This document shows, piece by piece, positions 22,337 through 27,353 of a stretch of DNA of 64,000 nucleotides (its first letter is position 1; each line of letters starts with the position of its first letter). Origin of the DNA: Luteibacter mycovicinus (GTDB lineage: Bacteria; Pseudomonadota; Gammaproteobacteria; Xanthomonadales; Rhodanobacteraceae). Under the pieces are notes generated by a model. It was not told the origin of the DNA and ran no database searches. It worked only from the letters and a program-made list of their open reading frames with translations. The position numbers and the translations under genes were made by a program. The DNA is taken from assembly GCF_000745235.1 (NCBI RefSeq), contig NZ_JQNL01000001.1, forward strand, positions 3,404,001-3,468,000, written 5' to 3'.

Positions 22337-23284
22337 ATGCGTAAGACCTTCATTGCCACGGCGATCTGCCTCGCTCTCGGATTCGCCCTGCCGGCCGTTG
22401 CCCAGGACAGCAGCCAGACCGGAGCAGCGGGCGCCACCGCCCAGCGTAACTCGACGGCGTATCAGTACTCGGACAGCTCGACCTATTCCGATAGCTCGAC
22501 TCACAGCAACACGACGACGAACACCACCTGGGGTTCGTACAACACGACGAATGCCATTTCCGACACCACGCTCAACGGGAGTGTCAGCGGCGTCACCGTC
22601 AGTGGCATCGGCAACAACGCCTATAACTACGGATCCGCAGCCGGTGGACGCGGCGGATCCGGCGGCGCCGGCTACGGGGCCACGGGATATGGCGGCGACG
22701 GCGGAGCTGGCGGCAGCGGCGGCAACGCGCGTGCGCGCGGCGCGGTCGGCGGCGACGGCAGTGCGTCGTCCAGCAGTGGCGATGCGGGCTCCCTGACCGC
22801 ATCGGCAGGCGGGAACGCCTCCGGCAACGGCGGCAACTCCAACGGTGACGGCGGTGCCGCGCGGTCTCGCGGCGCGGGCGGCGGTGCGCCGACGGGTGGT
22901 TCCACGGCCGGCACGGGTGGCGCGAGCGCGAGCACCGGTGGCGCGGGCACGTCGGGCGATGCCACGGCCATGGCGGCGGGTGGCGCATCGACAGGAACGG
23001 GCGGCGCGGGCGGCACGGCGACGTCCGCCGCGGGCGCCGGAGGTGCGGGCGCGGCGGCGGGTGACGGCACGGGCGGTGCGGGTTCCGGCGCGACCGGTGG
23101 CGCGGGCGGCGCGGGCGGTACGTCGATGGCGGACGCGGGCAGCTTCAGCATGGCCAATAGCATGGGCAGTGCGGGCGCGGCAGCGGCGGGCATCTCGAAC
23201 TTTGCGCAGAACAGCGGCGCGGCGTCGCTGATCCAGCAGGGTGTCAACGTTCAGGCCAATCTCAGCGTGGGCTCGTCGCCCTGA
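22337..23284 (+). CDS. Secreted Gly/Ala-rich protein, putative amyloid subunit
   Basis: A 315-residue low-complexity exported protein. The signal peptide is residues 1-23 (cleavage after AVAQ). Residues 24-100 are Ser/Thr/Asn-rich and include TLNGSVSGVTVSGIGNN; about 100-265 are almost only Gly, Ala and Ser with GG pairs; the C-terminal 50 residues return to normal complexity and end SNFAQNSGAASLIQQGVNV plus ten more residues. Similar C-terminal Gln/Asn/Val segments occur in Fap-type fibre proteins. ATG 22337 follows CAGGAGA at 7-base spacing. Its place at the head of a fapD-E-F-like run makes it the best candidate for the main fibre or adhesin subunit; this is inference. Confidence 0.75.
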   Translation: MRKTFIATAICLALGFALPAVAQDSSQTGAAGATAQRNSTAYQYSDSSTYSDSSTHSNTTTNTTWGSYNTTNAISDTTLNGSVSGVTVSGIGNNAYNYGSAAGGRGGSGGAGYGATGYGGDGGAGGSGGNARARGAVGGDGSASSSSGDAGSLTASAGGNASGNGGNSNGDGGAARSRGAGGGAPTGGSTAGTGGASASTGGAGTSGDATAMAAGGASTGTGGAGGTATSAAGAGGAGAAAGDGTGGAGSGATGGAGGAGGTSMADAGSFSMANSMGSAGAAAAGISNFAQNSGAASLIQQGVNVQANLSVGSSP

Positions 23285-23371
23285 CGCATCGGGTGGGCAA
23301 AGGGAGCCACGGGGCGCGTGTCGCTCCGTGGCGATCCGAAGGGACATCGAACGACCTTCAGGAGAGCACCC

Positions 23372-23737
23372 ATGTGGCAGCAATACCGGTATCGAAGGTG
23401 CGCGGTGCTGAGTTTCATCAGTATCGCGTTTTCCAGCGGAGCGGCGATGGCCGCGCCGCCAGCGGAAAAAACGCCACCGCCGGGCTTTGGCGCGGCGGTC
23501 CCCGCCGACACGCTGAAGGCGATGAGTGGCGGCAGCAACGTCACCAACAACGTCAGTCAGCAGACCCTCAACGGGACGATGAGTGACACGGAGGCACGGG
23601 ACACCGTAAGCGGCGGAAACATCGTGTCCGGTAGCGCGTTCGGCAACGCGGCGGGCCTGCCCACGGTGATCCAGAACTCCGGCAACAATGTGTTGATCCA
23701 GAATGCCACGATCGTCAACGTGCGGATGAATCCATGA
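23372..23737 (+). CDS. Small secreted protein with double-glycine leader motif
   Basis: A 121-residue protein. The signal peptide is followed by VPADTLKAMSGG (residues 43-54), which fits the double-glycine leader consensus of C39 substrates: hydrophobic at -12 (V43), -7 (L48) and -4 (M51), Gly-Gly at -2/-1. The mature part is rich in Asn, Gln, Gly, Ser and Val and ends TVIQNSGNNVLIQNATI. It shares TLNGT/S with the preceding Gly-rich protein. The start follows CAGGAGAG. Its stop overlaps the start of the C39 peptidase gene (ATGA). Probably a minor fibre subunit. Confidence 0.75.
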   Translation: MWQQYRYRRCAVLSFISIAFSSGAAMAAPPAEKTPPPGFGAAVPADTLKAMSGGSNVTNNVSQQTLNGTMSDTEARDTVSGGNIVSGSAFGNAAGLPTVIQNSGNNVLIQNATIVNVRMNP

Positions 23738-24417
23738 AGATCGTCTGCGCGCTGGCCCTGCTCGTCATGCTCCCGGCTCCCGCCGTCAGCGCGATGAAGG
23801 CCGATGTGCAGACCGGGCAGGGTACGTCGTATCCGGTCCGGTTGACGAGCCTCAAGGAAGCGCGGTTCCGCAACACCATCCGACAGAAATACGACTTCAG
23901 CTGCGGATCGGCCGCAGTGGCGACGTTGCTTACGTATCAGTACGGTTATCCGGTCGACGAGCAATCCGCGTTCGACGTGATGTACGCGAATGGCGATCGC
24001 GCGAAGATCGGGCGCGAGGGATTCTCCCTGCTGGACATCAAACGCTTTCTCGCGTCGCGCGGCTTCGAGGCGGATGGTTTCGACGTCCCGCTCGACAAAC
24101 TGGACGTCGACGGCATCCCTGCCATCGTGTTGATCAACGAGCGCGGGTATCACCATTTCGTGGTGGTGAAAGGGTACAAGGCTGGACGTGTCCTGGTCGG
24201 CGACCCGGCACGCGGAACGCGCTCGATGTCCAGGCGCCGTTTCGACGCGATGTGGACCAATCACATCGTTTTCGTCATTCACAACGAACGCGACCGCGCC
24301 ATCTTCAACAGTCCGCGTGACTGGGCGGTCGCTCCCGTGGCACCGATCTCCGGGAGTATCGAGCGTAACGGGCTCGCGCCGATCGTGATGCCCAAGCGCG
24401 GACCGGGGGACATATGA
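23734..24417 (+). CDS. Periplasmic C39-family peptidase (FapD-like)
   Basis: A 227-residue exported cysteine peptidase. After the signal peptide (cleavage near AVSA, residue 20) the C39 fold shows oxyanion Gln51 and catalytic Cys57 in RQKYDFSCGSAA, His141 in GYHHFVVVKGY and Asp157 in VGDPARG. There is no ABC transporter domain, unlike bacteriocin exporters, so it acts as a free enzyme after Sec export. It resembles FapD of the Pseudomonas amyloid operon in size, domain and position before E- and F-like genes. It overlaps both neighbours by ATGA. Confidence 0.85.
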   Translation: MKIVCALALLVMLPAPAVSAMKADVQTGQGTSYPVRLTSLKEARFRNTIRQKYDFSCGSAAVATLLTYQYGYPVDEQSAFDVMYANGDRAKIGREGFSLLDIKRFLASRGFEADGFDVPLDKLDVDGIPAIVLINERGYHHFVVVKGYKAGRVLVGDPARGTRSMSRRRFDAMWTNHIVFVIHNERDRAIFNSPRDWAVAPVAPISGSIERNGLAPIVMPKRGPGDI

Positions 24418-24950
24418 ACACCCGACTTTTCCGGCGGCTGCCGATCGCGTGCGCACTTGCCTGCGCCAGCGCGCACGCAGTGGACTTTCCGGTAAATCGC
24501 GCCGTGGCGGACGCCGAGCTGGACCGCATCCGCGGCGGTTTCGACCTCGGGGACAACCTCAAGGTGTCGTTCGTGCTCCAGCGCACGGTACTCATCAATG
24601 GCATGGAGGCGCTGCGCACCACCATCTCGGTGCCGGACGTCGCCGCGATCACCCACGATCAGGCGATGGCGCTGCAGAGCGCACTGCAGACCATGGTCAT
24701 CACCAATGGTGCCGGTGGCATCGGGAGTCAGTCGCCGGCGGTGTCGCCTGCGCCAGCGACCGCGGCGGTCGTTACCGCGGTCCTGCCGAACTCGATAACG
24801 CCGGGTCTCGTCATCCAGAACTCGCTTGACAACCAGGCCATCACGGCCAACACGACGATCGATGCGTCCGTGAACACGGCACGCATGCTGCAGAACATGC
24901 GTGTGGCGGAGTCGGTCAACGATGCGGTGATTCAATCTCGGGGGAACTGA
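24414..24950 (+). CDS. Secreted protein with canonical double-glycine leader (FapE position)
   Basis: A 178-residue protein. The signal peptide ends near Ala22; residues 31-42, VADAELDRIRGG, match the bacteriocin double-glycine consensus at every position (V at -12, E -8, L -7, I -4, G -2, G -1). The mature part starts FDLGDNLKVSFVLQR and carries LVIQNSLDNQAI, related to Ile-Gln-Asn segments in the other two exported proteins. It lies between the C39 gene and the pore gene, the place of fapE. It is likely processed by the neighbouring peptidase; its function is otherwise unknown. Confidence 0.75.
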   Translation: MNTRLFRRLPIACALACASAHAVDFPVNRAVADAELDRIRGGFDLGDNLKVSFVLQRTVLINGMEALRTTISVPDVAAITHDQAMALQSALQTMVITNGAGGIGSQSPAVSPAPATAAVVTAVLPNSITPGLVIQNSLDNQAITANTTIDASVNTARMLQNMRVAESVNDAVIQSRGN

Positions 24951-24953
24951 CGC

Positions 24954-26345
24954 ATGTATCGCAATGGCAGGGTGATGCAGGCAAAAACGTGCGCGGGCGC
25001 CCTGGTGCTTGCGGTTCTGCCGATGTGGATCGGCGCGTGCCTCGCGCAGGGATCCGCGGTGGATCCGGCGCTGCGCGAGAAGATCGAATCGCAGGGACGG
25101 AAGATCGACGCGATGCGCAGCCGCATGGCCGAGCAGCTGGCGGAGCTCGAGCAGATGAAGCGCGAGCTGGCGTCGCAGGAGGTGCAGTACAACGACCTGC
25201 GCAAGGCGATCGGCCTGAACGCCCTGGAGAACGCACGCGGCGGATCGGCGGCGGTCGCCAACCCCGATGCACAGGCACCCTTGCCGCAGGAACGGTCCGA
25301 TGGTCTTCCGCCGTCGACTCCCGTGATGGCGACATCCCCGCAGACGGTCGCGACGCAGCCGGTCGGCAAGCGACCCGAAGAGGACGAGAGGCCGCCCGAG
25401 GTCGCGCCCATCTTCGACCAGCCGGGTGTGCTCACGCCACGCGGCAAGCTCATCATCGAACCGTCGTACCAGTACGGTTATTCATCGAGTGACCGCGTTG
25501 CGCTGGTGGGCTACACCGTCATTCCCGCGATCCTCATCGGCCTGGTCGATGTGCGCCAGGTCAAGACGACCACGCAGACCGGGGCGCTGGCCTTTCGCTA
25601 CGGACTGACCAACCGCATGGAGCTGGAGATACGCGTGCCTTACGTGGACACGCACACCGACACGATCAGCCGGGAGATCTTCACCGGGACGGCACAGGAC
25701 AATCTCTTTACCACCAGCGGCAAAGGTATCGGCGACGTGGAGGCCACGTTGCGCTACCAGATCAACGACGGCGGTGCGGACAAGCCGTATTACATCGGCT
25801 GGTTCCGCGCAAAGTCGCGCACCGGTCGCGATCCGTTCGACGTCACCAGCGACTGTGTGACGCGCTGCGTACAAAATGTCACGGGCACCGGGCTTCCGTT
25901 GCAGAGTCCGACCGGGTCGGGCTTCTACTCGGCGCAGCTGGGCATGACGTGGCTGTATCCGTCCGATCCGGTCGTGTTTTTCGGCAACATCAGCTATTTG
26001 CACAACTTCGAGCGGAAGAACGTCAGCCGCAACGTCCTGCTTGCCGGAGAGCAGTTTCTTGGCGACGTGAAAGCGGGCGATATCGCGGATATCAGCATCG
26101 GCATGGGCCTGTCACTCAATGAAAAGGCGTCGATCAGTATCGGCTACGACCAGGCCTTCGTTGCCCGTACGGAGCAAAACGGGCATCCGCTGCCGGGCTC
26201 GGCGCGCGCCACGCTGGGGTCGCTCCTGATCGGCGGTTCGTATCGCTACAACGCGAAAGAAACGCTCAACGTCACCCTCGGTGTCGGTGTTACCCGCGAT
26301 ACGCCGGATACGACGATTACGGTGCGCCTACCCATCACCTTGTGA
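24954..26345 (+). CDS. Outer-membrane pore with N-terminal coiled coil (FapF-like)
   Basis: A 463-residue outer-membrane protein. After the signal peptide (cleavage near CLAQ) residues 38-88 form a charged heptad-rich coiled coil (REKIESQGRKIDAMRSRMAE and onward), then a Pro/Gln/Ala linker to about 155, then a beta-barrel of alternating aromatic strands starting TPRGKLIIEPSYQYGY and ending TVRLPITL. This architecture, a trimerising coiled coil plus barrel, is that of FapF, the pore that secretes Fap amyloid subunits. Such proteins are also annotated generically as transporter or phenol-degradation MetA-like. It begins 3 bases after the preceding stop. Confidence 0.8.
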   Translation: MYRNGRVMQAKTCAGALVLAVLPMWIGACLAQGSAVDPALREKIESQGRKIDAMRSRMAEQLAELEQMKRELASQEVQYNDLRKAIGLNALENARGGSAAVANPDAQAPLPQERSDGLPPSTPVMATSPQTVATQPVGKRPEEDERPPEVAPIFDQPGVLTPRGKLIIEPSYQYGYSSSDRVALVGYTVIPAILIGLVDVRQVKTTTQTGALAFRYGLTNRMELEIRVPYVDTHTDTISREIFTGTAQDNLFTTSGKGIGDVEATLRYQINDGGADKPYYIGWFRAKSRTGRDPFDVTSDCVTRCVQNVTGTGLPLQSPTGSGFYSAQLGMTWLYPSDPVVFFGNISYLHNFERKNVSRNVLLAGEQFLGDVKAGDIADISIGMGLSLNEKASISIGYDQAFVARTEQNGHPLPGSARATLGSLLIGGSYRYNAKETLNVTLGVGVTRDTPDTTITVRLPITL

Positions 26346-26407: not shown

Positions 26408-26498
26408 TTCCCGTGCACGCCGCGCACACACAACCGTTCGTTAAGATTTCAAACGGGGGTTACTAACAATCTTGAAACATTTGCAGGGAGTTTTGTTC

Positions 26499-27353
26499 AT
26501 GCGCACTGGTCACAATCGTTACGGCAAGTTCACCGCGGGTCTTGCCATCGCTTCGCTCGCCGCCTTCGGAGCGGCCGCGCATGCGCAGGACAGCGAGAAG
26601 AAGTCGCAGTCGCCGGCTCTCGATAACGTGAGCGTCTGGGTCGGTGGTTACTACACCAACAATGACACCACGATCGGCGCGAAGACCGGCATTCTGAACA
26701 CCAGCGGCGACGTCAATCTCGAAGACGATCTCGACTTCAAGAAGCACAAGACGGTGCCGCGCGTCCGCCTCGATTTCCTCATCGGCGCCCACCAGGGCTT
26801 CGCGTTCGACTATTACGAGGTCGATCGTTCGCACTCCAAGTCGCTGGACGAGCAGATCAATTTCCTCGGCAACCCGATCAGCGCGGCCGCGCAGGTCAAG
26901 GGCGACCTGAAGTTCACCTTCGGCAGCGCCGCCTACAAGTGGTGGTTCGGCACGGGCAACGACGTGTTCGGCCTCGGTCTGGGTGCGGCGTACTACAAGA
27001 TCGACGCCAGCATCGACGCGAACGCGTCGGCATTCGGCCAGAACTTCTCCAGCAGCAACTCCACCAAGACGAATGCCTGGGCGCCCAACCTGCAGATCGG
27101 CTGGCGTCACGCGTTCAGCGATCAGCTCCGCATGTACCTCAATGCGTCGGGCGTGAAGAAGAACGGTGGCTCGCTCAACGGCCATATCTATGACGTCGCG
27201 CTCGGCCTCGAGTGGTTCCCGTGGCAGAACGTCGGCTTCGGTGCGGAATACGCCTATACCCGCATCAAGCTCAACCAGGACAAGAGCCGTTACGACCTGG
27301 ACCTCGACATGAAGCTCAACGGACCGGCTGCCTACGTCCGCTTCCGCTTCTGA
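26499..27353 (+). CDS. Outer-membrane beta-barrel protein
   Basis: A 284-residue exported protein. The start ATG 26499 is chosen for its CAGGGAG site and because the signal peptide (MRTGHNRYGKF to AAHAQ) begins there; an upstream ATG at 26472 lacks a site. The mature protein alternates polar and aromatic residues in eight or so strands, begins NVSVWVGGYYTNND and ends YVRFRF with C-terminal Phe, as outer-membrane barrels do. I cannot name its function. An AT-rich 150-base gap separates it from the amyloid-like operon. Confidence 0.8.
   Translation: MRTGHNRYGKFTAGLAIASLAAFGAAAHAQDSEKKSQSPALDNVSVWVGGYYTNNDTTIGAKTGILNTSGDVNLEDDLDFKKHKTVPRVRLDFLIGAHQGFAFDYYEVDRSHSKSLDEQINFLGNPISAAAQVKGDLKFTFGSAAYKWWFGTGNDVFGLGLGAAYYKIDASIDANASAFGQNFSSSNSTKTNAWAPNLQIGWRHAFSDQLRMYLNASGVKKNGGSLNGHIYDVALGLEWFPWQNVGFGAEYAYTRIKLNQDKSRYDLDLDMKLNGPAAYVRFRF

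Follow-up and report, generated by a model that had tools for sequence, protein, structure and literature searches.

A five-gene locus in Luteibacter mycovicinus probably encodes a fibre-secretion system sister to Fap

Fap (fapABCDEF), which occurs in Pseudomonas and other proteobacteria, is the described system closest to the locus reported here, and it has been described as a restricted system. Fil (FilA-FilF) is a putative Acinetobacter pilus. Co-located fapD and fapF homologues outside Fap are mentioned in a passage of one report (PMC6173800), and part of another considers FapD and FapF to be probable members of larger families (PMC3792158); these passages give no gene content. A section of a third report calls the target of FapD unclear and suspects FapE, based on missing N-terminal peptides (PMC5557850). 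We analyzed a 64,000-nucleotide stretch of the Luteibacter mycovicinus genome (the window, positions 3404001-3468000 of a single 4,625,266-base contig). It contains five genes that probably encode a fibre-secretion system sister to Fap, with export, cleavage and fibre formation predicted from sequence. The genes are as follows:

22337-23284 (+): gene A, 315 amino acids, a Gly/Ala-rich exported protein and proposed major subunit (open reading frame (ORF) listing, homologue in 79/80 named loci)
23372-23737 (+): gene B, 121 amino acids from an ATG behind AGGAGAG, small and Asn/Gln-rich, proposed minor subunit
23734-24417 (+): C39 peptidase, FapD/FilB-like, 227 amino acids, with Cys57 as the predicted nucleophile
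24414-24950 (+): gene D, a FapE-like exported protein of 178 amino acids (hhalign against FapE and against B)
24954-26345 (+): FapF-like outer-membrane pore with an N-terminal coiled coil, 463 amino acids

The original prediction, made from the letters and ORFs of this stretch, described five tightly packed plus-strand genes with three junctions that overlap by ATGA or nearly so. The ORFs and junctions are as described, with ATGA overlaps at B/C39 and C39/D and a gap of 3 bases between D and the pore; 87 bases separate A and B. All five proteins have Sec-signal-like N-termini (judged by eye, without a predictor). A scan of named genomes found at least 354 relatives of the pore, and counts out of 80 refer to the best 80 of these. 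The five genes are co-located in 79/80 loci (the remaining locus, L127, ends at a contig end, and gene A is broken by contig ends in several), so the separation of the C39 and pore genes from the Gly-rich gene that would have spoken against the original prediction does not occur in these relatives. Genes A, B, C39 and D lie upstream of the pore on the same strand in 72/80 loci, and just downstream of it on the opposite strand in 7/80 (6 of the 7 viewed). The pore is present in 22 of 23 genomes of the genus, including the window's own. Given this count and the 79 intact sets, the five-gene arrangement is not due to chance.

On profile evidence, the peptidase and the pore are remote homologues of FapD and FapF that score below the NCBIfam cut-offs (Fap models NF058557, NF058558, NF058559, NF058560, and NF058616). 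The peptidase matches Peptidase_C39 (PF03412) with 74.3 bits against a cut-off of 22 and retains the catalytic residues in the named loci (Q/Cys in 80/80, His in 79/80, Asp in 80/80). It scores about equally to FapD (133.8 bits, cut-off 330) and FilB (132.3 bits, cut-off 475), below both cut-offs. The pore matches the FapF model with an E value of 5.4e-41 (140.7 bits, cut-off 700) and FilC with 45.9 bits (cut-off 630), and its residues 143-460, which cover the barrel, can be aligned with the FapF crystal structure (5o67_A, E 2.1e-27). Comparison by hhalign with FapD and FapF of the same bacterial family gives P=100% in each case, so the profile checks proposed with the original prediction did not come out against it, and an unrelated transporter family is not indicated for the pore. 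The coiled coil that it placed at the pore N-terminus has moderate support: at residues 37-86 of the window's protein the best a/d heptad register is 73% hydrophobic, with 18 of 5000 shuffles as good, and segments at p<=0.05 occur in 32/70 family members.

The proposed subunits are linked by a glutamine/asparagine (Q/N) repeat, located as follows:

22643-23119 (+): arm of A rich in Gly (42%) and Ala (23%), running from the first GG to the last
23168-23254 (+): C-terminal Q/N repeat of A, resembling mature B (residues 278-306 score 15.8 bits with the B-domain hidden Markov model (HMM), against at most 6.6 bits in 850 shuffles)
23621-23734 (+): C-terminal repeat of B, VIQNSGNNVLIQNATIVNV (sequence comparison)

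B has 587 relatives at E<=1e-3, with no Pfam domain among the 120 matches listed, and its C-terminus is strongly conserved. The Q/N-rich repeat is common to the C-terminus of A and mature B (0/5000 column permutations as good; hhalign P=93.5%), and B shares a motif with D (0/5000; P=95.7%); the permutation values and the hhalign value for A and B are flattered by selection on the motif. Permutation windows were cut with expressions holding part of the motif (80/80 B, 61/81 D, 53/80 A), and the hhalign A C-terminal set and FapE set (7 proteins, 9 loci) were picked by motif. Freer of this selection are the shuffle test with the B-domain HMM and the leader check at FapE loci. The B-domain HMM scores above the best of 850 shuffles in 55/73 A proteins of the window's type, and 10/12 subunit-like proteins of distant loci reach at least 19 bits (the subunits of L166, L175 and L074 were outside this test). 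Column permutation of A against D gives no signal. The subunits of L168 and L173 each have four repeat copies without a low-complexity arm, and the arm in other loci is Asn/Ser/Asp-rich or Gly/Thr-rich, which makes the repeat the constant part and the arm the exchangeable part. A comparable arrangement of repeats and linkers is given for FapB and FapC in part of one report (PMC6173800).

A could use the same export route and serve as a non-amyloid surface coat or adhesin; its GGX triplets would then pack into polyglycine-II helices, and the sole role of the Q/N repeat would be to anchor or target A. We consider this unlikely, as the median Z drops to 2.0 with Gly runs kept and the armless four-repeat subunits of L168 and L173 leave the repeat as the constant part.

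The locus could also be a strongly diverged true Fap operon, which the gene order and the homology of C39, D and pore would favor, as would the B repeat being spaced like the Fap repeat (2/5000 permutations). We find this very improbable for three reasons. In the pore tree, the pores of B-type loci (33 rows) split from 16 others at 100/100; both pore types are present in 13 genomes of the bacterial family; and the FapB, FapC and FapE models find no match to A, B or D at E<=1. The 16 other rows are nine Fap-type pores of the family and seven distant loci without B (a long FilC row was left out), and the window's own pore type forms one clade at 100/100. L073 was counted as B-type through a hit inside a 1647-amino acid ORF, a label made doubtful by that placement and by the lack of C39 in its stretch. 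All five models for FapB to FapF match the Fap-type locus L041 of the same bacterial family below their curated cut-offs (its pore scores 365.7 bits with FapF, cut-off 700). The FapE model matches in 12 of 274 genomes of the class, none above the cut-off, and not in the window's genome. D aligns with FapE at P=90% (E 1.6e-6) over 34 columns at the leader, for a FapE set picked by motif expression. The tree split and the FapE-model scan place the group beside Fap and not inside it, and since the proposed subunits do not match FapB or FapC and the pore falls outside the Fap-type pores, we do not file the locus as Fap. Thus the Fap-like operon of the original prediction holds as a remotely homologous fapD-fapE-fapF order (P=100%, 90% and 100%) and not as a true Fap operon, with the pore outside the Fap-type clade and FapB, FapC and FapE unmatched. 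Its Gly/Ala-rich subunit in place of the usual repeats needs amending, as A retains the Q/N repeat common with B and carries the Gly/Ala part as an exchangeable arm. Separately, contig G024 (L046:1922-14272) has two gene sets of Fap type separated by a few kb, and both include a FapC-like protein and a pore.

Candidate C39 processing sites are present in three of the proteins:

23453-23533 (+): proposed B leader, following the apparent signal peptide and ending TLKAMSGG (strict motif in 76/80 B proteins)
24480-24539 (+): proposed D leader, following the apparent signal peptide and ending AELDRIRGG (strict motif in 77/81 D proteins)
25224-25244 (+): LENARGG behind the pore coiled coil, a possible and weaker third C39 site (L...R[GA][GAT] in 72/81 pores)

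C39 leaders follow the pattern LSxxELxxIxGG. Behind their apparent signal peptides, B has PADTLKAMSGG/SN and D has VADAELDRIRGG/FD, both close to this pattern, and RGG is found in D of 13/13 distant loci. These double-glycine leaders make B and D likely C39 substrates, with the cut predicted after the leader. The pore site is the weaker candidate because it has no hydrophobic residue at -4. FapE has a leader like that of D, ending RGR/RGK before an aromatic residue, in 12/13 FapE-model loci, and such a leader is also found in the nine Fap-type loci of the bacterial family. By sequence resemblance, FilB too may have leader-bearing substrates. Two further proteins contain related motifs: a Fap-type pore (L191:2400-3705, -) has SELNDLRGKY in its N-terminal part, equal to the FapE leader motif, which would fit cleavage of a pore linker, and Acinetobacter FilA (L197:4500-5366) has DDAALSAATGQDG soon after its signal peptide, resembling the B and D leaders but ending in GQ. 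Least probable of all is that B is a bacteriocin-like peptide matured by C39 and released through the pore, for which the canonical leader and the C39 peptidase speak, but the peptidase is free with an apparent Sec signal, the set has no ABC (ATP-binding cassette) transporter, one repeat is common to B, A and D, and the B C-terminus is strongly conserved, unlike a rapidly varying toxin.

The gap between A and B contains one further feature:

23306-23332 (+): hairpin with an 11-bp stem (stem search, shuffles, covariation)

A stem with a score of at least 10 follows gene A in 59/72 loci, compared to 4/720 shuffles; by the same criterion stems follow B, C39, D and the pore in 9, 4, 1 and 8 of the 72. 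Ten of the 11 hairpin pairs vary on both sides among 26 hairpins that were chosen for pairing. We rejected an intrinsic terminator, with a T-run in only 3/72 loci, and a REP-type (repetitive extragenic palindromic) origin, the exact hairpin pattern being found once in the window's genome. No Rfam family matches the hairpin, and the promoter scan found no promoter.

The system most likely works like Fap; in what follows, the functions given to A, B, D and the hairpin are those we infer. All five proteins would reach the periplasm via Sec, to judge from their N-termini, and the C39 peptidase is predicted to trim B and D behind the double-glycine leaders. By homology to FapF, A and the trimmed forms of B and D would then cross a trimeric pore, gated by the coiled coil, in an unfolded state. 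Outside the cell, B may nucleate or co-assemble with A via the common repeat, which would form the fibre core with the Gly/Ala arm of A projecting. The hairpin behind gene A may keep A more abundant than the assembly proteins.

Several results weigh against this fibre model. In 18/73 A proteins of the window's type the B-domain HMM scores no higher than the best shuffle, and it finds no clear repeat in distant L174 and L176a. GG ends the B leader in only 1/14 distant relatives (by eye; L164-L176 and L074). Comparison of B with FapB and FapC by hhalign is not significant (P=3%), and a Fap-repeat profile is marginal for B, where 11/80 proteins exceed the 99% level of the shuffles. With 1 each, A and D are at background in this search, and neither gives a signal against the Fap repeat by column permutation. 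AlphaFold confidence is low, with a mean pLDDT (predicted local distance difference test) of 55 for mature B and 60 for mature D.

A broader proposal is more tentative, and we would not call it probable. In a Fap-sister class, one periplasmic C39 peptidase would license export by clipping B, D and perhaps the pore of its own operon at double-glycine leaders. The fibres would combine a Q/N-repeat core with exchangeable arms that differ by genus (Gly/Ala, possibly polyglycine-II, or Asn/Ser/Asp-rich), and the RG(R/K) leader would identify FapE as what FapD cleaves.

A pore match is present in 124 of 233 genomes of the bacterial family, 94 with the window's pore type (57-100% identity, G148 partial) and 30 with only a 24-30% type; the 13 genomes with both pore types are among the 94. 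The best 80 of the at least 354 named relatives include Luteibacter, Dyella, Rhodanobacter, Pinirhizobacter, Lysobacter, Luteimonas, and Pseudoxanthomonas, as well as Cupriavidus, Ralstonia, Pandoraea, Burkholderia, Paraburkholderia, and others. The closest pores among the named matches listed are from Luteibacter species, with up to 88% identity. In the class, 46/369 genomes have a pore match, and among 398 genomes sampled across the phylum 14 have a match to B. We took 20 distant loci (L164-L183) plus a Vibrio plasmid locus (L074): B, C39, D and pore are kept in L164-L175 (12 loci) and L074, L176 has B, C39 and pore, and B was not found in L177-L183. Dyella- or Luteibacter-like copies also appear in records labelled Eremiobacteraeota, Rothia and Bacillus (L103, P0040, P0055), which suggests mislabelled or contaminated assemblies.

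Downstream of the pore, the gene at 26472-27353 (+) appears outer-membrane beta-barrel-like (OMP_b-brl, 24.6 bits, cut-off 28.7). In 15/16 Luteibacter loci this position holds an ORF of 281-338 amino acids on the same strand, which is absent in other genera.

Among the papers listed, our literature search found no description of the five-gene variant. New here are the double-glycine leaders of B and D and the matching FapE leader ending RG(R/K). The analysis gives a defined gene content to one group of fapD/fapF homologues, which spans Xanthomonadales, Burkholderiaceae and other gammaproteobacteria. The question of the FapD target becomes testable as well, with plain candidate leaders in B and D and an aligned motif in FapE; if true, the RG(R/K)-ending leader would name FapE as the substrate of FapD.

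Curli can be set aside, as a Pfam scan of six proteins matched neither curlin repeats nor the CsgG pore. The C39 peptidase-ABC exporters share the C39 fold and the double-glycine leader pattern (by the general leader consensus), but the window's peptidase lacks a fused ABC exporter, and the candidate leaders are behind apparent Sec signals. Fil, like the window's locus, has a C39 gene adjoining a related pore, and FilB and FapD scores for the peptidase are nearly the same, whereas the window's pore has only its 45.9 bits against FilC. Models of A, B and D find no homologue in the Acinetobacter Fil locus L197 at E<=10, and its FilB-like C39 gene (L197:5661-6500) splits into two ORFs. Fap and the window's set both have a free C39 peptidase with an apparent Sec signal, a FapE-like protein and a coiled-coil pore of the FapF type, ordered D-E-F after the subunit genes, and a leader common to FapE and D. 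FapF has two PTG positions, and the window's pore retains one of them when the two are aligned. Unlike Fap, the window's set has its own Q/N repeat and Gly/Ala arm without a FapB, FapC or FapE model match, its D leader ends in GG where that of FapE ends in GR or GK, a Pro-rich RPPEVAPIFDQPGVL stands at the FapF plug position of its pore, and pores of its type form a separate clade.
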